The notes beneath the pieces were generated by a model. It was given only the letters and a program-made list of their open reading frames with translations, was not told the origin of the DNA and ran no database searches. A DNA stretch of 64,000 bases from Thermoplasmatota archaeon (GTDB taxonomy: Archaea; Thermoplasmatota; Thermoplasmata; Thermoplasmatales; Thermoplasmataceae): NCBI GenBank assembly GCA_023484105.1, contig JAMDBD010000009.1:62001-126000 (forward strand). The letters are read 5' to 3'. Of the stretch, positions 9,955 to 30,069 are shown piece by piece. The first letter of the stretch is position 1. Each line of letters begins with the position of its first letter. A program made the translations under genes and the position numbers.

Positions 9955-9959
9955 CAAGG

Positions 9960-10382: not shown

Positions 10383-10459
10383 TAAACGGATATAGATACA
10401 CCGTATTAAAAATCATTGATATGTGAGGATGCTATGAATATTCCTTATACATTGAAGGA

Positions 10460-11722
10460 TCAGGTGGACCTGATCCTTTTGAGAATTTCAACCGCGTGTG
10501 ATACAGATACTTTTTTGTCCCTGATCATCTCAGCCGCTACGGCATCTATTTCATCTCCCTTTGCGCCAGCCGAGATTGCAATGTTTCTTGAATGAAGCTT
10601 CATGTGGCCCGATTGAATTCCTTCCATAGAAAGTGCCCTGACTGCTGCAAAATTCTGCGCTAGTCCAACTGCAGCTAGGACAGAGGATAGTTCAGAGGAG
10701 CTTGTCACACCGAGTATCTTTCTGATTACCTTAACCTTGGAAACAGTATTCATGGCACCACCAACAGTTCCAACGGCCAGGGGTAATTCTATTTCACCAA
10801 TAACGTTTCCATCCTCGTTCATCCTGTATCGCGTGAGAGATGCATACCTTCCAGACAGGTACGGATATGCATGGGCTCCTGCTTCAACGGCCCTCCAGTC
10901 ATTCATTGTCGCCAGAAGCACGGAATCGATTCCATTCATTATACCCTTGTTGTGGGTGGCTGCACGATAAGGATCTATCTCTGCCATTCGTGCAGCGAGC
11001 AGGAATCTCTTTACCCCATTGTCATCCCCAAAATACTTCTTGCTGAACACCGCGGAGGCCCTGGCAATCCTCAAAGAGGAAAGATTTGAAAGAATCTTCA
11101 TGAACGCCACTCCTCCAGTGATCTCCTCAACCAGAGGTGCCGTACCCTCGACCATTGTGTTCACCACGTTCGCCCCCATGGCATCCCGGACATCCACAAG
11201 AAGGTGTACGCACATAACTTCCGGCTCTTCTTTGAATTCCCTGACCTGTATGTCCTTTGCCCCTGCTCCCAGCTTTCTGAGAGTATCTGAAAACGAATTT
11301 GCTCTGATTAAAATTTCATCCCTGCGTGAATATATCTTTGCAGTTGCATCATTCATGTCAGATATTCCGCTCAGGAATATCTGGCCTATCATAACCGGAT
11401 CTGAACTCTCAGCCCTAAAGCCTCCATTCTCACTGGCAATCTTTGCGGCATAAGAACAGGCGGCTACGACCGACGGTTCTTCTATTGCCATGGGAATAAG
11501 ATATGGTTTTCCATTGATGATAAAATTGGTGGCAAGACCAATGGGGTATTCGATGCTGGTAAACACGTTTTCTATCATCTTCGTGATGGTGCCTTCTTTC
11601 ACACTTTCTGTTAAGAGCATTTCAGATTCTTCCTTTGTAAGGCTTGCCGCCCTGGATATCACATCGATTCTCTCCTGTGCTGACAGGTTTCTGAAGTTTT
11701 TAAACTCTGATTTGTCAATCAT
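10460..11722 (-). CDS. hmgA: hydroxymethylglutaryl-CoA reductase, class II
   Basis: A 420-residue class II HMG-CoA reductase, which makes mevalonate for isoprenoid (archaeal lipid) synthesis. Key motifs are IEEPSVVAA with the catalytic Glu near 82, DAMGANVVNTM, the catalytic Lys in ATHNKGIMNGI, the Asp in NDWRAVEAGAHAY, the glycine-rich GTVGGA and the C-terminal catalytic His in IQSGHM. The first half, with SDPVMIGQ, and the overall length match the class II enzyme rather than the class I form found in many other archaea. That agrees with what is known of Thermoplasmatales. It is followed by no pathway partner in this window. Confidence 0.94.
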   Translation of the reverse strand: MIDKSEFKNFRNLSAQERIDVISRAASLTKEESEMLLTESVKEGTITKMIENVFTSIEYPIGLATNFIINGKPYLIPMAIEEPSVVAACSYAAKIASENGGFRAESSDPVMIGQIFLSGISDMNDATAKIYSRRDEILIRANSFSDTLRKLGAGAKDIQVREFKEEPEVMCVHLLVDVRDAMGANVVNTMVEGTAPLVEEITGGVAFMKILSNLSSLRIARASAVFSKKYFGDDNGVKRFLLAARMAEIDPYRAATHNKGIMNGIDSVLLATMNDWRAVEAGAHAYPYLSGRYASLTRYRMNEDGNVIGEIELPLAVGTVGGAMNTVSKVKVIRKILGVTSSSELSSVLAAVGLAQNFAAVRALSMEGIQSGHMKLHSRNIAISAGAKGDEIDAVAAEMIRDKKVSVSHAVEILKRIRST

Positions 11723-11808
11723 TGCACGTTAAACCCCAATCTATTCATAATTTCCTTATCCTGAATAAGGCGAGATATGTGTAAATATGGCATGCAAATG
11801 GATCAGAT

Positions 11809-12279
11809 CTAGATCTTTCCGATCAGGTCACTCCCCTTGAAGATACGTTCGCAATACTCGCACCTAGCTTCTAGAGGGTCCTCCGAAACAATATGGAATA
11901 TTGTCTCAACAGGTTCCTTGGCGTTTGATATACAGTTCTGATTCGGGCATCTGAGAATGCCCGAGATTGTTTCAGGCACCTTTACCTTACGTTTTTCCTT
12001 AATGTTATAATTCTCTATGAAGCTGATAGTGGCATCCGGTGCTATCAGAGATATTAGAGAGAGCTCCTCTTCAGCTATATTTCTGTTCTCGATCTTGACA
12101 ACGTCCTTGTAGTCCTTCTTATTGCTTTTCACCCTCATCGCGAGGCTTATGGTATGGCCGCTGTGCTCACCAACATTCAAGATGGAAAGCAGCCTGATTG
12201 ATCTTCCAGCGGGGATATGATCTATTACTATCCCGTCCCTGATCTTTGATATTTTCAGCGTTTGATTTTCCTCCGTCAT
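11809..12279 (-). CDS. pyrI: aspartate carbamoyltransferase regulatory subunit
   Basis: A 156-residue regulatory chain of aspartate transcarbamoylase. The N-terminal effector domain has DGIVIDHIPAGRSI. The C-terminal zinc domain has the four cysteines in CPNQNC and CEYC, with the EP segment between. It holds the catalytic trimers in the holoenzyme and transmits allosteric control by nucleotides. The ATG at 12279 lies 1 bp after the pyrB stop codon (12281-12283). A GGTGATGTG stretch at the end of pyrB provides its ribosome site. Both subunits are therefore translated from one mRNA. Confidence 0.95.
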   Translation of the reverse strand: MTEENQTLKISKIRDGIVIDHIPAGRSIRLLSILNVGEHSGHTISLAMRVKSNKKDYKDVVKIENRNIAEEELSLISLIAPDATISFIENYNIKEKRKVKVPETISGILRCPNQNCISNAKEPVETIFHIVSEDPLEARCEYCERIFKGSDLIGKI

Positions 12280-12280
12280 T

Positions 12281-13201
12281 TCACATCACCCCCATTATCT
12301 TTGAAATAAGTGCCATTCTCACCGGGACCCCGTTTGATGCCTGTCTGAAATATGCTGCCCGAGGATCCCTGTCCACCTCAGTTGAAATCTCATCAACTCT
12401 CGGAAGAGGATGCATTATTATCGAATCCTTCTTCATCATTTCAAGCGAATTGCTGTCGATAGAATAGGATCCTATGAGGGCCTGATACTCATTTGGATCA
12501 GTGAACCTTTCCCTCTGAATCCTGGTCACGTACACAACATCCGCTTCTGGAAGGCTTGACTCCAGATCCGTGGAAAGCTTTATTTTATCTTCATCGTGAA
12601 CCCTTTTGAGTATGTAGTCCGGAATCTTGAGGGATTCTGGGGAAACAAGGGTGATCTTTACATTAAATCTTGAAAGTGCTATTATAAGAGAATGGACTGT
12701 TCTTCCATACTTGAGATCGCCCAGCATGAGAACGTTTATTCCATCTATGTGTCCTAGCTCTTTCCTTATTGTATACAGATCCATTATGGTTTGAGTCGGA
12801 TGTTGTCCTGAACCATCTCCGGCATTTATGACTGGTTTGTTGGTGAACCGTGAGGCGAGCCTTGCTGCACCTTCAAGTGGATGTCTTATCACTATAATGT
12901 CAGAGTAGGAGTCCGCCATGCGTATTGTGTCTGCGAGTGTCTCACCTTTGGAGACAGAGGATGTTTTAACATCGGCCATGCTTATCACACTGCCTCCAAG
13001 CCTATGCATAGCACTTTCAAATGACAATCTTGTTCTTGTGCTGGGCTCGTAGAAAAGCGTGCACATTATCTTTGACTGCATGATGTCTGCCTTCCTGTTT
13101 TCCTTCAGAAGTTTTTCCATATCATCCGCAATTGAGAATATCTCTTTCAGGTCCTCATCGGATACGTCCTCTATGGTGACCACACTTCTATTTTTCAACA
13201 T
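12281..13201 (-). CDS. pyrB: aspartate carbamoyltransferase catalytic subunit
   Basis: A 306-residue catalytic chain, forming carbamoyl-aspartate in pyrimidine synthesis. Carbamoyl-phosphate-binding STRTR is at residues 54-58, followed by RHPLEG (about 106-111), GQHPTQ (131-136) and HPLPR near 263. I chose ATG 13201 (MLKNRSV) rather than an upstream ATG at 13372. The longer form adds 57 residues of low-quality sequence and overlaps the divergent TPR gene, while a TATA-like CAAATTAAAG lies 27 nt before 13201. It is transcribed with pyrI. Confidence 0.95.
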   Translation of the reverse strand: MLKNRSVVTIEDVSDEDLKEIFSIADDMEKLLKENRKADIMQSKIMCTLFYEPSTRTRLSFESAMHRLGGSVISMADVKTSSVSKGETLADTIRMADSYSDIIVIRHPLEGAARLASRFTNKPVINAGDGSGQHPTQTIMDLYTIRKELGHIDGINVLMLGDLKYGRTVHSLIIALSRFNVKITLVSPESLKIPDYILKRVHDEDKIKLSTDLESSLPEADVVYVTRIQRERFTDPNEYQALIGSYSIDSNSLEMMKKDSIIMHPLPRVDEISTEVDRDPRAAYFRQASNGVPVRMALISKIMGVM

Positions 13202-13270
13202 ACAACCTATAATATTCAGCTTTAATTTGAACTTTCCCAGAGATCGAAAATTAGGAGAGGAAAAACAATC

Positions 13271-13280
13271 AATAAATATT
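13271..13280 (+). promoter_or_regulatory. TATA element for the TPR protein
   Basis: AATAAATATT is centred 27 nt before ATG 13302 and sets the start of that gene. Confidence 0.5.
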
Positions 13281-13301
13281 GACATACGGATAAGGGCTTG
13301 C

Positions 13302-14042
13302 ATGGATGAATTTGAAGGGCATGTAAGGAAGGGGCAGCAATCGCTCGACAGGGAAAAATTCATGGATGCCATAAGAGAGTTTTCAGAAGCTGAAAAGATT
13401 TCATCTGGTATTGACGATGGATCCAGAGCAGATCTCTATTCGAGACTTTCACAGGCGTACTACGGTCTGAATCAAAAAGACAGAACCAATTCAGAAAAAT
13501 ACTGCAGAATGAGCATGGAACTGCACCAGAAGATGGGAGATGTGGCCCTGTATGTTATGGATCTTATAAATCTGTCATACATATATTCCGATTCTGGAGA
13601 AAATTCCGAGGCTGACAAGTATATTACAGAGGCTATTAAAGTAGCAGAATCCACAGGGGATGAATCTCTGATCTCAATGGCTAAACTCACCTATGCTGAA
13701 TATCTATCACGCAGCCCAAAAAGCAGAAATTCAGCACTCACTCTCTTCGAGGATATCAGGAACAGTGCCCTGAAGGGTTCAGACTGGGAGTCATATTTTG
13801 AGTCTACCCATGGAATAGCAACAATACTCAGAGAGGAAGGAAAAACCGATGACGCATGGAAAATGATTACCGAGGCCATAGACAGAATATTGAACATTTC
13901 ATCGTCAATTAAGAACAGGGCTGAAAGAAAGAGCTTCAAGGATTCCTTCTCCTACATATTCGATATGGGTTCGGACATGGCCATGGAAGAAGGAAATGTT
14001 GAGGAGGCAATAAAAATAGCCCAGAAGCTGGCCTCAGAATAG
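13302..14042 (+). CDS. TPR-repeat protein
   Basis: A 246-residue soluble helical protein with tetratricopeptide-like repeats. It begins with a segment like GQQSLDREKFMDAIREFSEA, and later repeats contain LSQAYYGLNQ, NLSYIYSDSGENSEADKYI and TILREEGKTDDAWKMI. TPR arrays bind protein partners; none is evident from the neighbours (pyrB divergent, DUF2240 convergent). The start is fixed by the TATA box 27 nt upstream, since the longer frame would read through the pyrB promoter. The function is otherwise unknown. Confidence 0.75.
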   Translation: MDEFEGHVRKGQQSLDREKFMDAIREFSEAEKISSGIDDGSRADLYSRLSQAYYGLNQKDRTNSEKYCRMSMELHQKMGDVALYVMDLINLSYIYSDSGENSEADKYITEAIKVAESTGDESLISMAKLTYAEYLSRSPKSRNSALTLFEDIRNSALKGSDWESYFESTHGIATILREEGKTDDAWKMITEAIDRILNISSSIKNRAERKSFKDSFSYIFDMGSDMAMEEGNVEEAIKIAQKLASE

Positions 14043-14049
14043 ATAATAT

Positions 14050-14511
14050 TTAAGACATTTCCTTTAGAAATTCGCTGACGTCAATACAATATTCATTGAG
14101 TATTGCAGCCATTGCAACCTCGAAATCTATGTATCTGAGTTCAGACTGCAGCTCCCTTGACTTTTCAAGGAGGTCGTTCCTGCTGAGTAATCCGGAAGCT
14201 ATCGCTGCTTCAATCATTCTTTCTGAAAGTGGGGCATCCCTCTTTGTTGCGAATAGATCAGACGTTTTCACGCTGAAATCCAGGGGGATCACTATGCCAC
14301 CAGTGCTGAAGGTCGGCTTGTAATGTCCATCCTCTTCAGTGAGGAGCCGCTCGTTTGTAGACTCCTCGACAAATCTCCTTACTTCAGCCTCTGACATGAA
14401 TCCAGCCTTGTGAGCAAGTTCGCGAATGAAGTCCTGAACGGTTAGATCTCCGATATCTTTCTTCTGTCTGAAAGCGTAGGCTATAAGCTTTCTGGCAGTC
14501 TGAATATCCAA
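14050..14511 (-). CDS. DUF2240 family protein
   Basis: A 153-residue protein resembling the archaeal DUF2240 family: an N-terminal helical part with KLIAYAFRQKKDI, a middle LLTEEDGHYKPTF segment and VIPLDFSVKTSDLF. The central region looks like a winged-helix arrangement, so nucleic-acid binding is possible but unproven. The start is TTG 14511, as the only upstream ATG is followed directly by a stop; GGGTGA about 9 nt upstream serves as ribosome site. The gene lies 20 bp behind peroxiredoxin on the same strand, suggesting one operon. Confidence 0.7.
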   Translation of the reverse strand: MDIQTARKLIAYAFRQKKDIGDLTVQDFIRELAHKAGFMSEAEVRRFVEESTNERLLTEEDGHYKPTFSTGGIVIPLDFSVKTSDLFATKRDAPLSERMIEAAIASGLLSRNDLLEKSRELQSELRYIDFEVAMAAILNEYCIDVSEFLKEMS

Positions 14512-14531
14512 TTACATTTCACCCGGAATAA

Positions 14532-15005
14532 TTATTCAACCTTTCCAAGTTCTTCAAGCAGCCTGGAATAATCCGGTTCTACACCTGGGTCATCGCTGAT
14601 CCACTTGTACCTTACAATGCCCTTAGAATCCAGGACAAATGCTGATCTCTTTGAAGCATAGAGTCCTTTTACACCCACAAAGTTCTCATGCAGAGAATCA
14701 TATGCCCTTGAAGCCTCCCTGGATGAATCGCTCAGGAGATCAAATTTCAGGTTGTATTCCTTTGCAAACTGGGCCAGTGAGAATGGAGCATCCACACTTA
14801 TTCCAACAACCTTTGAGCCTATGTCATTGAACTTTGCCATGGAATCTCTTATGTTGCACATCTCTTTAGTGCATACGCCTGTAAAAGCTCCAGGAAAGAA
14901 GAGTATCAATGTCTTATGTCCTATGTAATCATTCAGACTTCTTGGTTTCAAATCCGATCCTATCAGGTTGAAATCAGGTGCTTTTTTCCCTACTTCCACT
15001 GTCAT
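14532..15005 (-). CDS. peroxiredoxin (AhpE/Bcp-like)
   Basis: A 157-residue thiol peroxidase reducing H2O2 and organic peroxides. The peroxidatic site FFPGAFTGVC places Pro38, Thr42 and Cys45 as expected. A second cysteine, Cys50, lies five residues later, the spacing seen in atypical two-Cys or Bcp-like enzymes. The ATG at 15005 is about 22 nt from a palindromic TTATAA shared with the divergent dph6 gene, so the mRNA is probably leaderless. Oxidative-stress defence would suit an aerobic acidophile, but that lifestyle is an inference. Confidence 0.9.
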   Translation of the reverse strand: MTVEVGKKAPDFNLIGSDLKPRSLNDYIGHKTLILFFPGAFTGVCTKEMCNIRDSMAKFNDIGSKVVGISVDAPFSLAQFAKEYNLKFDLLSDSSREASRAYDSLHENFVGVKGLYASKRSAFVLDSKGIVRYKWISDDPGVEPDYSRLLEELGKVE

Positions 15006-15022
15006 GGTTTTCTATCGCACAT

Positions 15023-15033
15023 GATTATAAAAC
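15023..15033. promoter_or_regulatory. shared bidirectional TATA element (peroxiredoxin/dph6)
   Basis: GATTATAAAAC contains the palindrome TTATAA (15025-15030), centred 22 nt from the peroxiredoxin ATG (15005, minus strand) and 24 nt from the dph6 GTG (15052, plus strand). One TATA sequence could therefore serve both leaderless genes. Confidence 0.55.
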
Positions 15034-15051
15034 AGTTATGTATTGTAGCAC

Positions 15052-15708
15052 GTGAAAGGAATATCCCTTCTCTCAGGAGGCAAGGATTCATTCTTCTCCA
15101 CGGTCATAGCAATCGATCAGGGAATGGAAATACTCAGGTCCCTGACCGTTTTGCCTGAGGAATTCTCAATGATGTATCATTTTCCGAACGCAAATAAGGC
15201 TAGCTTGGTTTCAGATCTATTGGGCATTCCCTGGGAGAAGTTAACGGAAGATGAACTTGCGGGAAGAATAAAAAGCCTTTATCATGAGGGTGCTGAATTC
15301 CTGATAGCCGGCGCCACAGCATCTGAATACCAGAAAACGAGACTTGAGGCAATGTGCAGTGAAATCGGCATATCTCTGTACACACCGCTATGGAGAATCC
15401 ATCCAGAAATAATACTTGATAAACTGCTTGAATCCGGTATCACAGCAATAATAGTATCAGTTTCAGCAGAAGGCCTGGTTCCAAGTGATCTAGGAAGTCT
15501 TCTTGACAGGAAATATATAAGCCATCTGAAGAGTGTATCTTCAACGACTGGAATAAATATTGTTGGAGAGGGAGGGGAATATGAAACGTTCGTTACCGGT
15601 TACTCAGGCTCAAGCCTGAAAGTTAACATTGAACGGTCAAAGAGCATCTGGAACGGTTCTCATGGATATTTCATCATAGAAGATGCTTGTTTGATGCCAA
15701 AAATATAA
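15052..15708 (+). CDS. diphthine-ammonia ligase (Dph6 family)
   Basis: A 218-residue N-type ATP pyrophosphatase. The PP-loop SGGKDS is at 8-13, AGATASEYQKTR lies in the middle, and the family hallmark GEGGEYETFVTG is near 183-194. Members amidate diphthine on elongation factor 2 as the last step of diphthamide synthesis. The start is GTG 15052, 24 nt after the palindromic TATA element. No other diphthamide gene lies nearby. It is the archaeal short form without the extra domain of eukaryotic Dph6. Confidence 0.85.
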   Translation: MKGISLLSGGKDSFFSTVIAIDQGMEILRSLTVLPEEFSMMYHFPNANKASLVSDLLGIPWEKLTEDELAGRIKSLYHEGAEFLIAGATASEYQKTRLEAMCSEIGISLYTPLWRIHPEIILDKLLESGITAIIVSVSAEGLVPSDLGSLLDRKYISHLKSVSSTTGINIVGEGGEYETFVTGYSGSSLKVNIERSKSIWNGSHGYFIIEDACLMPKI

Positions 15709-15733
15709 ACATTCAGCAATAATCAGATACCGG

Positions 15734-18905: not shown

Positions 18906-19679
18906 TCATACAAATTCATAATCATAGATAATCATCACCTCAGCCGTCTTTTCTATCTTCCGTGCCTGATCAATTCTCCTCTTCGCCTGTGAAAGCGTTT
19001 CTGAGCAGCATACATAAACACCACCATTTCTGTCGCTTATTGAAAAAATGAGATCTTCATCTAAAATATTGCCTATCCTATCAGGGTGCTCCAGAAAAAG
19101 AGAATAAAGAACCACGCCTGCTTTGCTTGGATCTATTTCTGTGATGATCCCTATCACACGGTTCTTCTCAAGCTTTGAGAGCCTGCGTTTTAGCGTGGAA
19201 TATGGTATATTAGCCTTTTTTGCCATTGCGCTAAATGGCATTCTTGGGTCCTGCTGAAGAAGGCTTATTATTGTTCTGTCAGTGCTGGAAAGCTCTAACG
19301 ATTTGTCCTGCCATGGTATGTACCGCATCAGTGATTTGCCGAGCTCCTTTTCTGCTTTTCCTATTTTTGCTTCAAGATCCTCTCTGTCCTTTCCGGCGAA
19401 CCCATAAAGAGTTATTCTCTCAAGGCAGCGGAGCTTGGAATCCACACCATCCCCGTCGTATTCCTTATCACCCTGAAATGCGGCAAATCCCTCCTGCATC
19501 CCCCTATACGGCGCACTTACCCTAAGCTTGAATCCCTTTATGACACCGTCACTAATGAGTTTGGAAAATCTGTAATTGACCACCTGAGGAGAGATACCAA
19601 GTTCGTCAGCTATGGATCTCTGCTGCGCTCTTCCGTTCTTAAGAAATCCTATAACCATCTTCCTGTCAATCTGATCCAT
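18906..19679 (-). CDS. transcriptional regulator with two AsnC-type HTH domains
   Basis: A 257-residue protein with two similar helix-turn-helix domains. The N-terminal one (residues 3-50) has IDRKMVIGFLKNGRAQQRSI and LGISPQVVNYRFSKL. The second (about 110-160) has TDRTIISLLQQDPRMPFSAM and ANIPYSTLKRRLSKLEKN. Both resemble the DNA-binding part of Lrp/AsnC proteins, but the usual ligand-binding RAM domain is not obvious. It leads the operon with purB and so may control purine genes or itself. A minus-strand TATA, AAATTATATCT (19702-19712), lies 27 nt upstream. Confidence 0.75.
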   Translation of the reverse strand: MDQIDRKMVIGFLKNGRAQQRSIADELGISPQVVNYRFSKLISDGVIKGFKLRVSAPYRGMQEGFAAFQGDKEYDGDGVDSKLRCLERITLYGFAGKDREDLEAKIGKAEKELGKSLMRYIPWQDKSLELSSTDRTIISLLQQDPRMPFSAMAKKANIPYSTLKRRLSKLEKNRVIGIITEIDPSKAGVVLYSLFLEHPDRIGNILDEDLIFSISDRNGGVYVCCSETLSQAKRRIDQARKIEKTAEVMIIYDYEFV

Positions 19680-19830: not shown

Positions 19831-19840
19831 AGGTATAAAT
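19831..19840 (+). promoter_or_regulatory. TATA element for the surface-protein operon
   Basis: AGGTATAAAT is centred 27 nt before GTG 19863. It overlaps an in-frame ATG at 19839, which therefore cannot be the start of a transcript from this promoter. Upstream, AGATAACA occurs twice with short spacing and ATCGAATTTC is partly mirrored by ATCGAAAT, which may be regulator sites. Confidence 0.5.
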
Positions 19841-19862
19841 GTGTGTGTTGACTCATCGTATT

Positions 19863-21779
19863 GTGAAGGGTGTATCTATCAGGTCAAAGGATTCAGCTGT
19901 TGCAGTTGTCATAGGTGCAGTCCTTCTGGTAGCCATAGTGGTGGCCTTACTTTCATCATTTCTCCTATGGTATATACCTTCTTCTGGTGCATCTGCTGAA
20001 CTATCTGCCTTGACAGGTCAGGAAAGTAGTTTCATATCCATTTCTGAAAAGATGAATTCGCCATCAATGTACACAGGTGACATTGTAACAGGTTCAGTCC
20101 CGTTGGGCATACACGGATCACCGCCTTTCACGTCCGGTCAACCAACATCGATATCTTTCACAAATTCATCCTCAGTATTTCATGGGTACATGAATTACAG
20201 TTACAATGTATCTTACAAACCCACACTTAATATAAATGCGACTTTTGAAATAAATATTACCAATAGCCAGAATGTGCCTACAGAACAACCATTTGATCAG
20301 TATATTTCAATAAACGATGCTCAGATTTCCTACTACAACAATTCGAACTATTCAAATATAGACTTCTATTATAACAATGGAACAGCAATACCATCATGGC
20401 TGCAGAATGTGAGTTCAAACGGGGCTGCCTGGTGGCTTAAGATGTATTCAATTCCCGCTGATTCTCACGCTATGATAAGAATGTTCGTTTATTATAAGAA
20501 AATAAACGTCTTCGATGGAATAACCGTTGGTGAATCGCCGGTAATAGCCCCTGGCAATGATAATGGTTTTCTTGTCTTCCCCGTATATCTTTCCGCTGCC
20601 CATGCATCAGTAAACGCTGCCCCAGGTATAGTTGTGACTGCACAGAAGATCAACGGTCCATATGGGAATAAAGTGGAGGTATTACATATCACTGGTTACA
20701 GTTCAAGCAAATACGATGGATTAGCGACAACGGGTTCCTTGAACAATTACCCTCTTTTTGGTGAGAGCAGCTTTGTTCAGAATTCAAACACAGTTGATAT
20801 GGGAGTAATAGGTATCTCAACTGCAAATAACACCACGGATATGAAAAACTTCATAGGAGTTGGGATGGGCTATCAGGGCAGTTATATTTCAGGCAACTAT
20901 ATTGTTGATGGACATGCGACATACGGTTCTGGTCCACTGGGCCAAGCCAATGGAAAATGGAATTTCGCAGAGATAAGATATAACGGTAGCGCTCAGACTG
21001 GATACACCGGTTATATGAGTTCATCACCATGGCCGATTACGGCTTCAAGCTCAGAAACATTCGACGCAAATCCATTGTCAAATGCAAACAGTCTCTACCT
21101 GACACTTTCCGGTAATACCTCCACGGGCAATCAGTGGAATCTCAGCCTTGGTTGGGCTTTTCTCACTTATCAGCCTCCAAATGGAATTATGCCTGGGGTT
21201 CATTCTATAGTGCAGACCACTTCTGGTTTCACAGAATATTACAACGTCTCGTTCAAATTTACCGGCCTTATCATAGATTCTCCCCCTCTATCTTACGTAA
21301 CACAGACCAATGTTTATTTAGCTGGAGGTGAGGTGATCGGACAGCAGGGGAGTTATTCAAGTTTCATTTCACAGCTCCCTGCCAACGTGTACAATAATTC
21401 CGGAAATATCTCATTCCAGTCTGCCGCTGATACAATAAGCGGTCCGGATCAGGGCGTTAGTGCACTTGGGTCTTCCGTGGTTCAGATGGTGTCAGCAAAC
21501 ACCATTTCAAACTCATATTTCATTGGGGAGAATATAACTTTTCTCACACAGACTCAACTTCCATACAGCGCAATCGTGACCGGAATAAACATAACGGCAT
21601 TTAATTATACGCTCTTTGGGGCTTTCGCTTCAGCTCTTTACTATGGGTACGTTCATAATTATGACTCTTACTTCAGTATACATTCCGGTACGAATACTGT
21701 GAGATTATCCCTGAGAAACGTTTTAAGCCTGTATTCGCTTAATATAGAGGAAAGTGTGTTTGATCTGGTGAACCTTTGA
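19863..21779 (+). CDS. secreted surface protein with type IV pilin-like N-terminus and DUF2341-like region
   Basis: A 638-residue protein beginning, from GTG 19863, with a short basic stretch (MKGVSIRSK), then DSAVAVVIGAVLLVAIVV and a hydrophobic core, the archaeal Pilin_N-like pattern. About 45-120 residues in, it has PLGIHGSPPF, shared in form with the next two genes. Residues around 120-230 (ISYYNNSNYS, SIPADSHAMIRMFVYY, TVGESP) resemble DUF2341, a beta-sandwich domain of surface proteins. Many Asn-X-Ser/Thr sites suggest glycosylation. It is first in a three-gene set and is anchored, or assembled, through its N-terminus; no C-terminal anchor is seen. Confidence 0.7.
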   Translation: MKGVSIRSKDSAVAVVIGAVLLVAIVVALLSSFLLWYIPSSGASAELSALTGQESSFISISEKMNSPSMYTGDIVTGSVPLGIHGSPPFTSGQPTSISFTNSSSVFHGYMNYSYNVSYKPTLNINATFEINITNSQNVPTEQPFDQYISINDAQISYYNNSNYSNIDFYYNNGTAIPSWLQNVSSNGAAWWLKMYSIPADSHAMIRMFVYYKKINVFDGITVGESPVIAPGNDNGFLVFPVYLSAAHASVNAAPGIVVTAQKINGPYGNKVEVLHITGYSSSKYDGLATTGSLNNYPLFGESSFVQNSNTVDMGVIGISTANNTTDMKNFIGVGMGYQGSYISGNYIVDGHATYGSGPLGQANGKWNFAEIRYNGSAQTGYTGYMSSSPWPITASSSETFDANPLSNANSLYLTLSGNTSTGNQWNLSLGWAFLTYQPPNGIMPGVHSIVQTTSGFTEYYNVSFKFTGLIIDSPPLSYVTQTNVYLAGGEVIGQQGSYSSFISQLPANVYNNSGNISFQSAADTISGPDQGVSALGSSVVQMVSANTISNSYFIGENITFLTQTQLPYSAIVTGINITAFNYTLFGAFASALYYGYVHNYDSYFSIHSGTNTVRLSLRNVLSLYSLNIEESVFDLVNL

Positions 21780-21795
21780 GATTTGAGGGTTAAAA

Positions 21796-24759
21796 ATGAG
21801 AGATGTTAGGAATGGTAGGGACAAAGGGGTTTCGGAAATAATAGGGACCGTCCTGCTTTTTGGAATATTCATAACTCTATTGAGTTCGATTACCCTATGG
21901 TATGTTCCATCCACGGAGACTTCCTATGAGAATACTTACCAGTCTGAAACTGCCGCTTCGATGGCCTCAATTGCTTCCACGTTTAACAATCCAGATCTTC
22001 CTCCAGGACTTACTGTTACTGACAACCTTCCTATGGGAATTTCAGGCGGTTTCCTGCTTCCTTCACAGAGCACACAGGTGAATTTTAATCCTTCTGAGTT
22101 CAGCGGTAGTGTCTCATATGGTGTGGGAATATCATATAAATACACGGGACCTCATCCTACGTCCTCAATTCTAAACAAACTTCTTGAGACATTTCCTTCT
22201 GATAATTTTTCAAATCCCCAGGCAGAACTTTATGATCAGTACAATGGTCTCCTGTACGTAGCAGGATATGCTTCCAATAACATTGCAGTTATAAACGTCG
22301 TCACCGGGCAGATTTTGAAACTGATTTTTGCCGGTTCTAACCCAGCATCAATAACACTGGACCCTTCAAATGGATATCTTTATGTGGCGGATTACTCGTT
22401 GTTCTACAGTCCATCTGGATATTCCTATTCCACGGTCTCTATAATTAATACACATACAAACACCTATGTGAAAAGCATAGATCTTTACAACAATAATGGG
22501 GAATCTGAATATAGTTCATCCAGTATAGTTTATGATGCTTCAACTGGTTACATCTATGTCTTTTCCAATCAGACAAACTATTACTTTGCAATGATAAACC
22601 CTAACAATGACGCTGTTTCCTTTATCCTCTTCCTGCCCTTCCTGACCCCTTTCTCTTTCTCTTCCGTAAATATCCCTATTATTGTTGATAACAGTCAGGG
22701 TAATTTTATACTTCTCCCACTTAATCTTTCATTTACAGGCAGTCCTGAGTTTATTATTATAGATGCGGCAAATCCAGGTTCACAGGAACTGATTGATGTC
22801 AATGGGAATTCATTAGATGGGAATATCCTTTATGGGGCCACTTACTCTGGCAATTATATTTATTTTACATATTTTGGCGGTAACGATTATGGAGGGATAA
22901 TAAGTGTTACTTTTCCCACGTTCACACCCAATTCATTTCCATCGTTTAATTACGCTTCAGAATATGCAAATCCGAATAGTGAGTATACACCGTATAATAT
23001 ATCATTACAGCAGGATACCGGTAATATCATTTTTAGTATGCTCAACATAAATGGCAAGTCTTCAGATTCCAAGATAGATGCTCTTGCGCCTTCAACAATG
23101 AGCGTTTCTCACAGTATAAAAGTGGTTGGAAATGCCGGGCAGATCCAGTTTGATTCCAACCATGTAATTGTTCCGGATTCTTCAGCAAATTATGAAACTG
23201 TATTGTTGATCGGCGCTTCGTCTATCTCCATTGACGGCCTCATACTCGACAGCCCATTTCAATCTCCTGTTGGTTCTATATATAATCCGGATAACGGCTA
23301 TCTCTATGTGTCAAACCCTGGTTCAGGTACTGTTACGGTCATATCACCAATCAATGATTCTTTGGTTGCGAGGATCAATACAGGCGCCCTGACAGCACCT
23401 TCACAGATGGCTTTCAGTTCTGCAAACGATCATATCTATCTGATTTACACACATTCAAATAGAATAGGGATAATAAGCAACTATTCTTTTCTTGGAGACA
23501 TATCATTATCTTATGGAGGTTCCAACTATTTTGCAACATCTATATCTTTCGATCCTGTAACAGGATTTATTGATATTTCTGCAAACAGTAATTCCAATGG
23601 AGGCTTTTTCTCAGTGAACACAAATCTTCCTTTTGATGATGAAAGTGCTACATTGATTGCGTTGGAGCCTGCAGGAAGTGCTGAGGCAGTTTCTTATGAC
23701 GGATATGCTGGTTTGTCCTATGGAATTTACAAAACCAACGGTAACGTTTACCTTTTGAATATTTCAAATACACATTCAATTCAACTCTCTGGTATTTCAA
23801 ATGCCGTTACAGGCGCTGTTTTTGATTCTCTCGACGGCTATCTCTATCTGGCCATAGGCTCTCAGGATGTGCTTGCAGTTTACACACAGAATTTTATCTA
23901 CTTCAGCCAGATATATACAGGAAGTCAACCAGAGTTTCCGATTTATGATCCTGGTAACAACATTATATATGTTTCCAATTACGGCACAAGCAATATCACC
24001 GTTGTTAGCGGCGAATCTAACACAGTTCTGATAACCGTGTGGGTTGGCAATGGCCCTTCCGGATCTTCCTTTGATCCCAGCAACGGGTATATTTACATAC
24101 CAGATCAGCAGAGCGATAGAGTTAGCGTCATAAATGGTGGCTTCACATTCTTCTTTGGAAGGCCAGGTATATTTTACAACGACCACGAGGTATTTGGGGG
24201 TGAACTGCAGAGTTATGGGTACACAGAATATATCCCTTCAGTCAGCTATGTATTTGCAGGTGGAGCCCTTATGGAGCTTACATCGAATTACAGATCGGCA
24301 AGTATCCTCACACACACTCCATTTACCGTGGAAAACCTCTCCGGTCACCTTTATCTATCAGGGATCTTCATTAACATGACAGGAGATCCATCGTCTGTGT
24401 CAGCATCCAGCCCGCAGCCAGTTTCCTTCAATATCGGAAGCAAGATCTCAAACGTTTCCTATGTTGGCCAGGAGTTTTATGTGTCAGATCTGTATAACAA
24501 CAAATACCAGGCCATAGTAACGTCGGTATATCTGGAATACTATACCCTGAAACTTAATACAACATTTGCAGAGGCATGGGACAACTCACTTTACAGTGAG
24601 TATAACGGAACATCTTCTAGCGCTCCTCCGGTATGGTATTTTAATAATATTCCAATGAAAGTATCTTTGAACGGCAATACCATTACTGTCAGTTTGTTGC
24701 ATCCAGTGAATATTTATTCGGTGAGTCTCACTTACTACAAGGTGTATGTGGGCATTTAG
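21796..24759 (+). CDS. large surface protein: pilin-like N-terminus plus beta-propeller repeats
   Basis: A 987-residue secreted protein. The N-terminus, RDKGVSEIIGTVLLFGIF, is a typical archaeal pilin-like signal followed by LWYVPST. Next comes the shared PMGISGGF region, then at least seven YVTN/NHL-like propeller blades of the form DPSNGYLYVADYS or NGYLYVSNPGSG. The C-terminal about 150 residues (GQEFYVSDLYNNKYQAIV, LNTTFAEAWDN) resemble the ends of the neighbouring surface proteins. It is Ser/Asn/Tyr-rich with many N-glycosylation sequons. The ATG at 21796 follows the previous stop by 16 bp with GAGGGTT as ribosome site. A role in adhesion or as a surface-layer component is inferred. Confidence 0.72.
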   Translation: MRDVRNGRDKGVSEIIGTVLLFGIFITLLSSITLWYVPSTETSYENTYQSETAASMASIASTFNNPDLPPGLTVTDNLPMGISGGFLLPSQSTQVNFNPSEFSGSVSYGVGISYKYTGPHPTSSILNKLLETFPSDNFSNPQAELYDQYNGLLYVAGYASNNIAVINVVTGQILKLIFAGSNPASITLDPSNGYLYVADYSLFYSPSGYSYSTVSIINTHTNTYVKSIDLYNNNGESEYSSSSIVYDASTGYIYVFSNQTNYYFAMINPNNDAVSFILFLPFLTPFSFSSVNIPIIVDNSQGNFILLPLNLSFTGSPEFIIIDAANPGSQELIDVNGNSLDGNILYGATYSGNYIYFTYFGGNDYGGIISVTFPTFTPNSFPSFNYASEYANPNSEYTPYNISLQQDTGNIIFSMLNINGKSSDSKIDALAPSTMSVSHSIKVVGNAGQIQFDSNHVIVPDSSANYETVLLIGASSISIDGLILDSPFQSPVGSIYNPDNGYLYVSNPGSGTVTVISPINDSLVARINTGALTAPSQMAFSSANDHIYLIYTHSNRIGIISNYSFLGDISLSYGGSNYFATSISFDPVTGFIDISANSNSNGGFFSVNTNLPFDDESATLIALEPAGSAEAVSYDGYAGLSYGIYKTNGNVYLLNISNTHSIQLSGISNAVTGAVFDSLDGYLYLAIGSQDVLAVYTQNFIYFSQIYTGSQPEFPIYDPGNNIIYVSNYGTSNITVVSGESNTVLITVWVGNGPSGSSFDPSNGYIYIPDQQSDRVSVINGGFTFFFGRPGIFYNDHEVFGGELQSYGYTEYIPSVSYVFAGGALMELTSNYRSASILTHTPFTVENLSGHLYLSGIFINMTGDPSSVSASSPQPVSFNIGSKISNVSYVGQEFYVSDLYNNKYQAIVTSVYLEYYTLKLNTTFAEAWDNSLYSEYNGTSSSAPPVWYFNNIPMKVSLNGNTITVSLLHPVNIYSVSLTYYKVYVGI

Positions 24760-24768
24760 GTGAAGTGA

Positions 24769-26832
24769 ATGGTCGGAATCAGGAAAGGGGTATGGACAGG
24801 CAAAGGGGATCGGGGAATCGCGGAGATAATAGGAACACTCCTTGTTTTTTCTATGGTTGTTGTCTTTACCACCGGATTTGTTTTGTACTACGTTCCAACA
24901 TCTGGGGCTAACAACGAAAGAGTATATATGTCCGAGGCGCTGAGCTCTATCAATGAAATGGCCAGCAAGCTTGACAACTTCAACGGAAACCCTGGTTCAG
25001 GGATCACTCAGGAGATTCCCATGGGGATAACGGGTTCGTTCTTCTCGAAGGATTATAATACAGAAGCCGTTTTGTCCGGAAATTCAGGAAACTATCATCT
25101 TCAATACTCGCTTTCCCTTGGCATACAGCTAGAAGGATATAATCCGGGTAACCATAAGGGATATAACAGGGTGGTCGGCAACATAAACACAGGGGCTTCC
25201 GGCACTGATGGGATAGCCTTTGACAGCCAGAATGGCTATCTCTATGTTATAAATTACTATTCCAGCAATGTGAGCATAATTGACGGGTCCACGAATCAGG
25301 TGGTTGGAACGATAAATAATCTACAGGGCAATCCTGTAGGGATAACCTACGATTCAGGTGATAACAGGGTATTTGTCTCTCTTCAGAATTCGGTATCTAA
25401 TTCCTCGGGCTGGATAGCGGTTATAAATCCCTCCACCAACCAGTTACAGAACTATATAAAGACACCATATTTCCTATATGGAATAACCTATGATCCTGAA
25501 TCAGGTAGAATTTTTGCCTCTTTTACAAGTTACTATCTGAATGAGTATTACCCATACAATACTATATCTGGGCTTATTGTCTATAACGCTTCGAGTGAAA
25601 GTTACTATGGTACAATTGCTCAGCCGGCATATAATTTTTCCACTGGTGAAATTACCATTCCTTCTTCAGTTTCATATGATCCCTCAAATGGCCTGATATA
25701 CGTTGCCGGAGCTGTCCATATATGGGCAATAGATGGCGTCACTGATGTTCTTGTTAAAAAGATACCTATAAGCAGTCCATGGGTTGTTGCATTTGATTCC
25801 TTTAATGGAAACATATATGCAACGGCAGCTGAAACTACCAATCAGGCAGGTCTGTCTCCTGCTGGAGGTTCTTCTTACCAATATATCTACGTGATAAATG
25901 GGACAACTAACCAGATCGTCTCCAGCGACACTCTAACGGTGGGTGAATATCCCACTACCATGATCTATGATCCTGCCAACAGGTACGTGTATGCTGCCAA
26001 CTATCAGACAGACACAATCATAGTCATTAACGGTGTGACCAACCAGATAATTGACAATATAACTGTGGGAAATGGGCCAGGTCCGGGTTTCAACTCACTT
26101 GCTTATGACAGTGCCAATGGGGAAATATACGTTTCAAACCTGAATTCAAACAACATAACAGCTATCGAAGGAAACACGGTTTTGAATGGAAAGGGATGGA
26201 AACTTAAAAATTCAGAGCTTCCACTCAGTGATGCCCTCTATGGGAACGGTTCCTTCTTTATCCTCGCTAATACGCAGTTTGTACCCTCAACGATGTACAT
26301 GCTTGAAGACGGCACTCCATTGGCTATATCGAATGGACAGGGATTAAACACAGGAGGTTTGCCATTTGTCTTTAATTCATCAGTAAGCGGTTTTGGAGGG
26401 CTGAGTGTTTCCATTCAATCGTTGAGGGCAGAGGGAGTCTCATATTCTACTGATCAAAATCTCATGGCACAAGTGCTGCTCCTTTCTCACGATGTAATGT
26501 CACTTGGCTATGGAGACATAGTTGAGATGCAGAACACTACTACGCATGAGTCTCTGCAGGTGCAGATACTTAATGTTTATCTGGATTCCTTTAACTACTG
26601 GATCAACAGTACTTACGCTTCGGTCTGGGATTATTCATATTACATTGCCACTCATCCATACACAACACTTTCATTCTATCAGGTAACATCAATGAGTTCC
26701 TGGTCATTTGACAACGGGCATATTTCTGTTGATTATTCTCCCGGAGTTTTATCGTTTCACAATACAGTTCCTATAATACTATTCTCGATCAACATAGATA
26801 AATACACTTATTCTGCAACTCTTACAACATAA
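24769..26832 (+). CDS. surface protein: pilin-like N-terminus plus beta-propeller repeats
   Basis: A 687-residue protein and the third of the set. The N-terminus, GDRGIAEIIGTLLVFSMVVV, precedes YYVPTSG and PMGITGSFF, aligning with the two upstream genes. The propeller blades are clearer here: GIAFDSQNGYLYVINYYSSN, VIDGVTNQII-like turns and MIYDPANRYVYAANYQTD. The C-terminal module (GDIVEMQNTTTHESLQVQI, STYASVWDYSYY) matches that of the previous gene. An AGGTGAA ribosome site lies just before ATG 24769, 10 bp after the previous stop, so the genes are co-transcribed. No pilus ATPase or platform gene is present in this window. Confidence 0.72.
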   Translation: MVGIRKGVWTGKGDRGIAEIIGTLLVFSMVVVFTTGFVLYYVPTSGANNERVYMSEALSSINEMASKLDNFNGNPGSGITQEIPMGITGSFFSKDYNTEAVLSGNSGNYHLQYSLSLGIQLEGYNPGNHKGYNRVVGNINTGASGTDGIAFDSQNGYLYVINYYSSNVSIIDGSTNQVVGTINNLQGNPVGITYDSGDNRVFVSLQNSVSNSSGWIAVINPSTNQLQNYIKTPYFLYGITYDPESGRIFASFTSYYLNEYYPYNTISGLIVYNASSESYYGTIAQPAYNFSTGEITIPSSVSYDPSNGLIYVAGAVHIWAIDGVTDVLVKKIPISSPWVVAFDSFNGNIYATAAETTNQAGLSPAGGSSYQYIYVINGTTNQIVSSDTLTVGEYPTTMIYDPANRYVYAANYQTDTIIVINGVTNQIIDNITVGNGPGPGFNSLAYDSANGEIYVSNLNSNNITAIEGNTVLNGKGWKLKNSELPLSDALYGNGSFFILANTQFVPSTMYMLEDGTPLAISNGQGLNTGGLPFVFNSSVSGFGGLSVSIQSLRAEGVSYSTDQNLMAQVLLLSHDVMSLGYGDIVEMQNTTTHESLQVQILNVYLDSFNYWINSTYASVWDYSYYIATHPYTTLSFYQVTSMSSWSFDNGHISVDYSPGVLSFHNTVPIILFSINIDKYTYSATLTT

Positions 26833-26991: not shown

Positions 26992-29900
26992 TTATTTTGG
27001 TTTATTTTTCTTCTGCTGTTGCATAATTACAACCCCTGCAATCAGAGCACCAACAATGACAACCGCTATTATTACAATAAGAGCATAACCTGGCAGATGG
27101 AATCCACTGCTTTTGCTTGGGGGAGGTGGAGGAGAGACCTTGCTGGTTGTTGAAGAAAAGTAAATGTGAACGACAACGTTGGAGCCGTTAACTATTACGG
27201 TACCAGATGAAGGGGCAACCGTATAGCCAGTTATATTGGTAATGGAGTATTTATAAGTTCCATTGAAATTGTTGGGAATCACTATGGATGATGTACTGTT
27301 GGAATATACGGTTCCAGCAAAATTGACAGTCCAGGTGACTCCAGAGGGTAGACCACTTTCTATGAATGTAACGTTATATTGAACTGGAATGAAAGATATG
27401 CTTTCAGTGGCCGGTGCCCCATAGATTACAACTATTCCTGAGTTTGTAATCGGCATATACTCTGAGTTTAGAGACCTCACTTTATACTCGTATGTTCCAT
27501 TCGGAAGCTGGAATTCAATGCTACTATAGTAGGAAGTCTGGTAAAAGCTGGCTGTATTATTATATACGGTCACATTCCATTCCACACTGGAAGATAACCC
27601 AGATTCGAGGAATCTTGCGGCATAATCATTGATGCCAAATTGGATAGTTTCAGATATGTTTTTTCCGTCTACAGTGATAGTTCCATTGCCCCTGGATGGC
27701 CAGTAATTAGTGTCAACATGCGGAATATAGTAGTTATAGGTTCCATTGGCCAGCTCCAGGGTTATGGTTACAGGATTTGAAACAGTGGAGTTGTAAAGTG
27801 TTCCATCTATGTATATATACCATATGGCTCCAGCCGGTAGATTCGACTCAGAGAGAATCACATTATATACGAAGTCGTTGTAAGTTACACCAACTTTTTT
27901 ACTTCCATTAAGTAAAATATTGTAAACAGGCGGAATCGCGTAATACGTGAAACCGGAAATAGAGTCATTAACTGGCATAATGACGGCCTGAACGCTTCCA
28001 TTTTCAACACTCACTGAGGTGTTACTATGATCTGTGAAACCGATAATTCCATTTATATCATATTCCCAGTACACACCTGACGGAAGCCCAGATTCCATTA
28101 TGGTGAAGTTGTGGGTGAGGGAATGAAAGTGCAGGGTTATATTTGTATATCCCACCACTGAAGAATTCATGGAAAGTACGCCGCCGGTGTTATTTGAAAC
28201 AAACGTACCGTTGAATAAAGGCACCATATAGAAGTAAGTCCCGTTTACCAGGTTGAGGCTAAATGAACCTGTACCATTCGAATAGTACTGCAAACCGTCC
28301 AGCTCAATAGACCAGTCACTTCCTGCAGGCAGACCAGTCTCTCTGAAGGTTGTCTCTATGTAATTCTGGTAAAAACGGACGCTGAAACTTGTGCTTTTTC
28401 CATTTATTGTGAAGAATCCAGATCTAACTAAAGGCAGATACCTTTTACCATGATAAATCACAGGATCAATGAAGTAATAATAAGTCCCATTTCCAAGCTG
28501 AGTCATAATGTTTCCAGTCGTGGCCGAACCAAAGCCGGCCGAGTAGGTGTATCCGTTTATATATAAGGTCCAGTCTACACCCGCCGGAAGACCAGTTTCA
28601 TTGACAGAATATACAAACATTTCCGGTACGTAAGTCAGATTGACGACAGTGTAATTGGAATCAACATTAACTATCATTGACCTCTGTACAGATATGAACC
28701 CATCCTGAGAAGAAAACCACGCTACATAAGATCCGTTGGTATCTCCAATAAACGTTACCAGCCCTCCATTTTCTGAGCTTTCAGTAAAATTTCCCTTCGA
28801 CGTGTTTAAAGTGACTGAGTACTGAATGCCGTATGGCAGACCGTGTTCAAAGAATTGGATTTCATAGGGTTTCTGGCTGTTGGATGAAATTACCCCTGAT
28901 GCAGTAGTTGATTGCGAAAATGACACATTGACCTCTTCAACTGTATTAGTTGTGGACAGGCTAAGAGAACCCGAGCCATTGGCTGTAGCAGAAAATCCTG
29001 CATTCGGTAAAACAGAATAAGAAATGGTGCTTACAGAACCATTCACTGTGAACACCACAGTATTATTATCGCTGAACTGATGTATACTTCCAGCGGATGT
29101 GGTGACGTTGACTCCCCATGACATTCCTGATGGAAGACCCTTCTTTTCTATAAATTTGATATAATGTTTGTCAGGGACAAAAACCACTGGTTCTGAGTAT
29201 GTGGATGAATTCAGATATATTGTCTTTGCAGGCAACTCTGAAACATAACCGCCAACAGAGGGAATACTGAAATGGTAAGTACCATTGGGAACCCGAAACA
29301 GAATTGAAGAGTTCTGTGACGTTTCCTCATGTCCAGACAGATTTACAGACCAATCTGGCATTGAGCCGTTAACCACCGGAAGCCCTGTCTCCTTGAAATA
29401 AAGCAGATTGTACCGGTTTGTAAAGGAAATCATAACTTTGACATTCTCATTGCTGACGTTAACCTTGCCGTTTGCATGCGAAGTGTAGTACCCCGCAGTT
29501 GGAGCTATAGAATAATTGTATGTTCCGTCAAGAAGTGCGAAGGTGATACTTGAATTGCCGGAAGTTTTATTTATCGCTAACTTACTCCCATTCCTTAGTT
29601 CCAGCGTCCAGGGTGTGGCATTTGGTAGACCGGTCTCATAGAATGTAACAGTGTGGTATTCTGTTGAAAAATAAATGTCCTGAACATAATCAGCATTATC
29701 GACATAAATGCTTCCATTTTTAGGAGATGGAATAAATCCAGAAATGTTACCTATTGTAAAGGTATAATTCCTGCTGCTGTTAACGAAAAATACGATTGAA
29801 TTTGTATCTGACCTTTTGGTTGTGTTGTTAAAGGTTACAGCCCATGGAGCATTATCAGTCCCTACATTAGGCAATCCTCTTTCAAAGAAAGTTACGGTAT

Positions 29901-30069
29901 ATTTCCCAGTTCCTGAGGAACTTGCCAGTATTGGTGCAATACTGTGCAGGTGTAATTGAGAATTTCCTGAAAATACGGATGTACCAGGTACTAGAAAAGC
30001 CAGTACTAAAAGTATGGATAAAGCAATTTTGATCCTTTGTTTCCTGCTTTTGAAGATTGTGTGTTCCAT
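26992..30069 (-). CDS. 1025-residue surface protein with eleven FxExGLP repeats and C-terminal anchor
   Basis: The protein has an N-terminal signal peptide (KQRIKIALSILLVLAFL), then about eleven repeats of roughly 80 residues. Each opens with a variant of V-T-F-x-E-x-GLP-x-G-x-x-W (for example FIESGLPSGVTWTV, FRETGLPAGSDWSI) and contains a G-T-Y-x-Y/F-x-I strand. The C-terminus has SPPPPPSKSSG, a membrane helix (YALIVIIAVVIVGALIAGVV) and a basic tail. Repeats of this kind are common in secreted Thermoplasmata proteins, often with thermopsin-like proteases, though no protease domain is visible here. It probably extends from the membrane as a rod. It is convergent with the pilin-like cluster. 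Confidence 0.75.
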   Translation of the reverse strand: MEHTIFKSRKQRIKIALSILLVLAFLVPGTSVFSGNSQLHLHSIAPILASSSGTGKYTVTFFERGLPNVGTDNAPWAVTFNNTTKRSDTNSIVFFVNSSRNYTFTIGNISGFIPSPKNGSIYVDNADYVQDIYFSTEYHTVTFYETGLPNATPWTLELRNGSKLAINKTSGNSSITFALLDGTYNYSIAPTAGYYTSHANGKVNVSNENVKVMISFTNRYNLLYFKETGLPVVNGSMPDWSVNLSGHEETSQNSSILFRVPNGTYHFSIPSVGGYVSELPAKTIYLNSSTYSEPVVFVPDKHYIKFIEKKGLPSGMSWGVNVTTSAGSIHQFSDNNTVVFTVNGSVSTISYSVLPNAGFSATANGSGSLSLSTTNTVEEVNVSFSQSTTASGVISSNSQKPYEIQFFEHGLPYGIQYSVTLNTSKGNFTESSENGGLVTFIGDTNGSYVAWFSSQDGFISVQRSMIVNVDSNYTVVNLTYVPEMFVYSVNETGLPAGVDWTLYINGYTYSAGFGSATTGNIMTQLGNGTYYYFIDPVIYHGKRYLPLVRSGFFTINGKSTSFSVRFYQNYIETTFRETGLPAGSDWSIELDGLQYYSNGTGSFSLNLVNGTYFYMVPLFNGTFVSNNTGGVLSMNSSVVGYTNITLHFHSLTHNFTIMESGLPSGVYWEYDINGIIGFTDHSNTSVSVENGSVQAVIMPVNDSISGFTYYAIPPVYNILLNGSKKVGVTYNDFVYNVILSESNLPAGAIWYIYIDGTLYNSTVSNPVTITLELANGTYNYYIPHVDTNYWPSRGNGTITVDGKNISETIQFGINDYAARFLESGLSSSVEWNVTVYNNTASFYQTSYYSSIEFQLPNGTYEYKVRSLNSEYMPITNSGIVVIYGAPATESISFIPVQYNVTFIESGLPSGVTWTVNFAGTVYSNSTSSIVIPNNFNGTYKYSITNITGYTVAPSSGTVIVNGSNVVVHIYFSSTTSKVSPPPPPSKSSGFHLPGYALIVIIAVVIVGALIAGVVIMQQQKKNKPK

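Follow-up and report, generated by a model that had tools for sequence, protein, structure and literature searches.

Three tandem proteins of a Thermoplasmataceae archaeon as probable modular minor pilins with cargo inserted into one shared chassis

Three consecutive genes, hereafter A, B and C, in a 64,000-nucleotide stretch of the genome of an acidophilic archaeon of the Thermoplasmataceae (assembly GCA_023484105.1; the whole stretch is called the window below) encode large proteins that are, in our view, probably modular minor pilins of an archaeal type IV pilus. This pilus would be built by a machine of the type known from the CdiP pilus of Cuniculiplasma divulgatum, which comprises a pair of ATPases and a pair of platform proteins, and the bulky adhesive cargo of the three proteins would most likely be displayed at its tip. 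Sequence comparisons establish a single chassis, a single insertion region and three kinds of cargo, homology to proteins encoded next to such machines, co-occurrence with them across genomes, and the presence of machine and peptidase genes in the genome itself. The three genes lie head to tail, with gaps of 16 base pairs (bp) between A and B and 9 bp between B and C:

19839–21779, forward strand: gene A, 646 amino acids (aa), putative chassis pilin with a non-propeller (DUF2341-like) cargo
21796–24759, forward strand: gene B, 987 aa, putative chassis pilin with a YVTN propeller cargo
24769–26832, forward strand: gene C, 687 aa, putative chassis pilin with one YncE-like propeller

The initial annotation had placed the start of A at 19863, which is an alternative GTG within a reading frame that begins at 19839. 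By homology, A, B and C are one chassis of about 330 residues (class III-type N-terminus, one membrane helix, a YVP turn and a predicted beta-rich body) interrupted by cargo. Ten genomes of the same family carry a single uninterrupted protein of about 330 aa in the same gene neighbourhood, which includes, as far as the stretches reach and with names taken from reading the translations, purB, an acyl-CoA-synthetase-like gene, a glycosyltransferase-like gene, ftsZ and genes for transketolase. A profile built from those ten proteins only, all of other genera (S.hmm), matches each of A, B and C in two pieces that flank the insert (residues 4–144 and 458–614 of A, 5–118 and 801–983 of B, 8–207 and 489–683 of C), with domain E-values from 1e-36 to 6e-13. 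In a search of the window's own genome, the six half-matches reached E-values of 1.5e-38 to 1.1e-16 and are not due to chance; the same search returned no chassis protein beyond A, B and C. The N-terminal and C-terminal parts, described earlier as separate modules, together make up this chassis, each being one half of it on either side of the cargo (a slash marks the predicted cut):

19839–20270, forward strand: N-terminal chassis half of A, S.hmm positions 3–143 at residues 4–144, predicted class III site RSKDSA/VAVVIG (V21)
20238–21236, forward strand: cargo insert of A, about residues 134–466, weak DUF2341 match at its start
21210–21776, forward strand: diverged C-terminal chassis half of A, S.hmm positions 125–280 at residues 458–614, E = 5.8e-13
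21796–22149, forward strand: N-terminal chassis half of B, S.hmm positions 13–129 at residues 5–118, predicted class III site NGRDKG/VSEIIG after an 11-aa leader
22150–24195, forward strand: propeller cargo of B, residues 119–800, TIGR02276 at E = 1.8e-15
24196–24756, forward strand: C-terminal chassis half of B, S.hmm positions 144–326 at residues 801–983, includes FYVSDLYNNKYQAIV
24769–25176, forward strand: N-terminal chassis half of C, predicted class III site GKGDRG/IAEIIG
25177–26232, forward strand: propeller cargo of C, residues 137–488, AlphaFold model and Foldseek match to YncE
26233–26829, forward strand: C-terminal chassis half of C, S.hmm positions 140–328 at residues 489–683, includes IVEMQNTTTHESLQVQI

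The similar C-terminal module initially seen in two of the proteins is indeed homologous between B and C, but it is not confined to them, S.hmm revealing a diverged copy in A, so that all three C-terminal regions are alike. The chassis is broken at model positions 126–144 in all 22 long proteins from 11 genomes (a few rows showing read-through or overlap locally), and the inserts measure 333–933 aa. An AlphaFold model of the chassis, computed from eight alignment rows, predicts an all-beta body at a mean predicted local distance difference test (pLDDT) score of 50; in this low-confidence model, the cargo site falls on or close to a turn that joins two strands, which is only suggestive. A search for solved structures with the chassis sequence profile gave nothing meaningful. 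The fixed cargo site holds only within the family of the window. An attempt to extend it to family f5 failed, as three operon-linked variants of about 500 aa (504–557 aa; L231 3343–4887, L232 3371–4885, L233 2723–4396) break elsewhere, with inserts near position 212–242 of the profile A6.

Regarding the cargo, the propeller bodies announced by the initial annotation are found in B and C, both of which match the YVTN repeats of NCBIfam (TIGR02276; E = 9.2e-17 for C), but not in A, which has no such repeats by NCBIfam and bears a different, non-propeller cargo. The inserts of B and C are related to each other (hhalign 99.8%, E = 1.1e-27). For C, AlphaFold predicts a kinked helix (residues 12–69), a propeller (residues 146–467, pLDDT mostly 65–89 with dips below 50 at 257–264, 284–295 and 357–368) and a poor C-terminal part; with this model, the best Foldseek match is YncE (3vgz, E = 1.5e-17), while the YVTN domain of an archaeal surface-layer protein (1l0q) comes fifth. 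The insert of A is 35% identical over 127 aa to that of its counterpart in genome G004 (E = 1.9e-15), and the two have DUF2341 matches that both stay below the cut-off (E = 0.0014 and 0.007, respectively); DUF2341 occurs in proteins proposed as pilus-tip adhesins by Makarova et al. (PMC4858521). A third kind of cargo (x-type), an insert of 626–650 aa, is found in three chassis proteins of about 960 aa from two other genera:

L076, 7883–10777 and 10866–13748: tandem pair of x-type chassis proteins in a Cuniculiplasma-type genome
L071, 7029–9917: x-type chassis protein

In the two of these three proteins that were scanned, no Pfam or NCBIfam match falls within the x-type insert. We also considered these inserts as hidden propellers and discarded the idea, since they share no profile similarity with the inserts of B or C.

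A, B and C each have a single strong hydrophobic stretch, located N-terminally, which comes after D-x-[A/G] and leads into W or Y, then Y-[VI]-P and P-[LM]-G-I; two more stretches of B, at 1.65 and 1.74, are borderline. As initially stated, none of the three carries a C-terminal anchor. Their pilin-like character was also rightly recognised, given that the family shows similarity to Pilin_N, its commonest Pfam match (8 of 16 members, best E = 3.2e-4), and to TIGR02537 (5 of 16 members), along with a site like that of the C. divulgatum pilin CdiPB. A class III signal motif on the N-terminal side of the first hydrophobic helix is thereby recognised by homology only: the chassis motif D-x-[AGST]/[VI]-[AS]-x-[IV]-[IV]-G (with E in place of D in a single B row) is in register with the CdiPB site, and D-K-G/VSEIIG of B, with a leader of the same length, superposes on D-K-A/VSPIIA of CdiPB, a site verified by cryo-electron microscopy, the mature pilin having been shown to lack the 11-residue leader (PMC12448462). 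The CdiPB-like sequence was recognised in genome G015, where 861 bp separate two small pilins (the published spacing of the two C. divulgatum pilin genes is 862 bp; PMC12448462) and the one of 146 aa fits CdiPB, with the 11-residue leader MKELRPKEDKA and a mature chain of 135 residues from VSPIIA. Pilin_N has no match in the search of the window's own genome; we do not read this as absence of the motif, because both the family profile and the comparison with CdiPB show it. Among proteins with a readable motif (the C protein of G004 lacking its start), mature position 3 is E in 8/8 B, 10/10 single and 3/3 x-type proteins and in 6/8 C proteins (one D, one V), and V or A in 8/8 A proteins, which sets A apart as a subunit type of its own. 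Glu at this position as an analogue of bacterial Glu5 was set aside, CdiPB having Pro there.

Chassis proteins without an insert are found throughout the class Thermoplasmata. In other families of the order, a homologous family of about 290 aa (hhalign probability 99.4, E = 1.3e-21 over 240 columns against the family of about 330 aa) is encoded beside the pilus ATPase and platform operon in 22 of 23 genomes (families f3–f6; exception: G053), the edges of the matches being 310–1754 bp apart. Within a class-wide sample of 300 genomes, chassis and platform family T2SSF were detected together in 219, T2SSF alone in 24 (six of which belong to family f1, where the chassis profile used for the class sample is less sensitive), chassis alone in 9 and neither in 48 (p = 2e-28 by Fisher's test, without correction for kinship). 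Both rows are listed for 94 genomes of this sample, with the two genes on the same contig in 84 (within 6 kilobases, kb, in 83) and on different contigs in 10. For the 61 closest genomes, the chassis is present in 0 of the 9 T2SSF-negative ones vs. 49 of the 52 T2SSF-positive ones, or 48 by a strict count that leaves out G025, where only a generic pilin N-terminus is matched. The platform-less genomes span six genera; in genus g2, G004 has both components and G022 (79% complete) neither. A frame of 13,409 aa that begins with a chassis in C. divulgatum S5 was rejected as an artefact of masked bases.

The genome of the window has such a machine, in one operon on the same contig, C3 (contig coordinates, of which the window covers 62001–126000):

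10150–11703: pilus ATPase
11700–13313: platform protein
13310–14137: platform protein
14139–15713: pilus ATPase

This operon (10150–15713) has the two ATPases and two platform proteins of the CdiP type, and A starts 66 kb downstream of it. The initial annotation had reported no assembly ATPase nearby and advised a search for PibD and pilus ATPase genes in the genome; the missing ATPase reflects nothing but the limit of the window, outside of which both ATPases lie. The same layout is described for C. divulgatum, whose pilin genes lie about 500 kb from the two ATPases and split platform that serve them (PMC12448462). Two homologues of A24-type prepilin peptidases are present as well (C2:1640–2320, E = 1.7e-39; C34:88817–89497, E = 8.4e-31), found with the protein of a relative as query, the Peptidase_A24 profile alone having missed both; the former carries GIGD and has sub-threshold matches to Arc_PepC_II and Peptidase_A24. 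In the congeneric genomes G001 and G003, a major pilin is encoded beside the machine, upstream of the pilus ATPase operon. The corresponding place in the genome of the window (about 9730–10150 of the contig; L051) holds a recombinase-like short open reading frame. Elsewhere on this contig, 43862–44218 on the reverse strand (L053 3754–4359) matches a pilin profile at E = 1.6e-5, with an N-terminus devoid of the usual D-x-A/V site, and matches of similar strength, of about 179 aa, exist in G001 and G003.

From these results, a mechanism can be proposed. The leader would be cut at D-x-[A/G]/V, the helix would pack into the pilus core as in CdiPB, the cargo, too bulky to fit easily in the shaft, would sit at or near the tip, and the propellers may bind surfaces or partner cells; in this way, the triad proteins would probably serve the pili of the cell as adhesive components that can replace one another. 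Analogy favours the tip: in structural modelling, the bulky PilB of Streptococcus sanguinis fits only there, and pilins of modular build are found widely among bacteria (PMC8179133). Provided that the chassis is a pilin, its YVTN-bearing versions associate a pilin module with a domain from outside pilus biology, as modular pilins do. Several observations weigh against this interpretation. The chassis model, and with it any pilin-head fold, is of low confidence, Pilin_N is below the cut-off for A and B and absent for C, and a canonical major pilin was not found in the assembly, which is 94.85% complete. Moreover, the chassis genes do not adjoin the machine in the family of the window, the co-occurrence p-values ignore phylogeny, nine genomes of the class sample have a chassis and no detected platform gene, and, conversely, the platform-positive G002, G024 and G053 have no chassis, G025 having only the generic pilin N-terminus.

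Three other explanations deserve consideration. First, A, B and C might be membrane-anchored parts of an exterior protein layer, their helix staying in the membrane without polymerisation, whether or not a prepilin peptidase cuts them. Their single N-terminal helix and the lack of a C-terminal anchor would suit this role, as would the distance between genes and machine in this family and the missing major pilin, and Thermoplasmatales do have an unordered protein layer of about 20 nm of unknown make-up (PMC12448462). We nevertheless regard it as unlikely, for it leaves unexplained both the homology to operon-linked proteins and the co-occurrence with the platform; N-terminal assembly or anchoring, as proposed initially, thus stands, but simple membrane anchoring is the weaker alternative, the chassis being encoded beside the machine elsewhere and absent from nearly all machine-less genomes. 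Quite improbable is a role as base or initiation subunits, i.e., pseudopilin-like parts of the platform, a role proposed for other minor pilins of archaea, in which the cargo would make up a surface collar rather than a tip: Makarova et al. (2016), arguing from the archaellum, do locate class III proteins that lack an assignment close to the base, although they allow for other decorations (PMC4858521), but a variable and exchangeable cargo is easier to reconcile with being exposed to partners than with a structural collar. Finally, it is hardly credible that the three are ordinary propeller proteins, secreted or of the S-layer type, that carry class I signal peptides, in spite of YVTN propellers being common in archaeal surface proteins (cf. 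the match to 1l0q), since the N-termini, examined for this very possibility, belong to a family with Pilin_N and TIGR02537 similarity and a CdiPB-like site, and the body is the pilin-linked chassis.

The cassette and the machine appear to have different histories. Complete triads are found in the genome of the window and in G001, G003, G004, G013, G017, G029 and G033, and B and C at a contig edge in G006. In the chassis tree, A, B, C, single and x-type proteins each fall on one side of a branch, with supports of 98, 95, 39, 80 and 100, respectively. The triad of the window groups with that of G004, which is of another genus (plus G006 for C), and not with those of its congeners G001 and G003; forcing the three congeners together is rejected (p-AU, approximately unbiased test, 7e-76 for C and 2e-70 for B), long branches being in play. 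In contrast, the first pilus ATPase is 89% identical to those of the congeners and 74% to that of G004, while chassis identities range from 26 to 38%. As the triad groups with G004 while the ATPase follows the congeners, the cassette was probably exchanged, or has persisted as one of several old parallel alleles, against the background of a machine that is inherited vertically. A bolder scenario, which we regard as possible though rather doubtful, is that a Thermoplasmata pilin has a dedicated cargo-docking loop, was triplicated in one family into an A-B-C tip complex (like GspI-J-K) and had its cargos swapped (propellers, a DUF2341-like domain and, in other genera, an unrelated module of 620–650 aa), with the cassette moving between genera, the machine being vertical, and the terminal hooks of Cuniculiplasma pili made of such cargo pilins. 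The pili of C. divulgatum end in thin hooks whose composition is unstated in the parts of the report covered (PMC12448462), and G031, a congener, carries two x-type chassis proteins; proteins of this kind might form the hooks.

Compared with known systems, the chassis fits arCOG02911, the minor pilin of euryarchaeal clade 2 type IV pili (about 250–550 aa, class III, beta-rich, duplication-prone and common to ATPase/TadC systems; Makarova, Koonin and Albers 2016, PMC4858521), by its published description only, with which it agrees in size, location and duplication habit; that description, as far as covered, mentions neither an inserted propeller nor a common cargo site. The bacterial modular pilins PilB and PilC of S. 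sanguinis, CofB and GspK likewise combine a bulky module with N-terminal assembly and are modelled at the tip, and GspK carries its additional domain as an insertion within the pilin sheet, comparable to the chassis insert (PMC8179133). In the parts of that survey covered, however, they are of the N-methylation family, with other cargos that are mostly C-terminal grafts, whereas the triad is archaeal and tandem, with large inserts at one internal site; the Pfam N-methylation domain used in the survey has no match in A, B or C, which are of the archaeal type. The CdiP pilus shares the machine layout, the archaeal family, the cleavage motif and the distance between pilins and machine, but CdiPB has 135 aa and large cargo proteins are not mentioned in the covered parts of its description (PMC12448462). 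The PilC/PilY1 tip adhesins also present a beta-propeller on a pilus, yet they are not pilins, their C-terminal propeller being of another family and bound to minor pilins (PMC8179133, PMC10191384), and YncE and 1l0q have the propeller fold without the pilin chassis. In the titles and abstracts of the literature found (most subscription papers and supplements being outside this scope), neither archaeal pilins with propellers nor archaeal modular pilins are described. The parts are known (archaeal minor pilin, YVTN propeller, modular pilin) and the combination is new: archaeal, inserted internally at a reused site, in a tandem triad, and with probable cassette exchange. It would connect a specific pilus machine with large surface proteins that acidophilic archaea carry under labels such as "hypothetical" or "YVTN", show the principle of modular pilins at work in archaea too, here by insertion at a single site used repeatedly, and provide a concrete candidate for surface or partner recognition by archaea without an S-layer and for the pilus hooks of Cuniculiplasma. 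For specialists of archaeal surfaces, the cargo site and the link to a CdiP-type machine should be useful and partly surprising, the functional role being an inferred one.

Two neighbours of the triad complete the picture:

18906–19679, reverse strand: 257-aa protein between purB and A, divergent from A, which by eye looks like a double helix-turn-helix Lrp-type regulator
26992–30069, reverse strand: convergent 1025-aa protein with repeated F.E.GLP.G..W units ("GLP" repeats) and a C-terminal membrane anchor

The regulator-like gene is not present at loci L057 or L058. Proteins resembling the GLP-repeat protein adjoin the triads at L057–L059 and L061–L063; it is possibly a partner surface protein of the triad. 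In families f4 and f5, a C-terminally anchored protein of about 1400 aa with a zinc-ribbon end adjoins the pilus operons.

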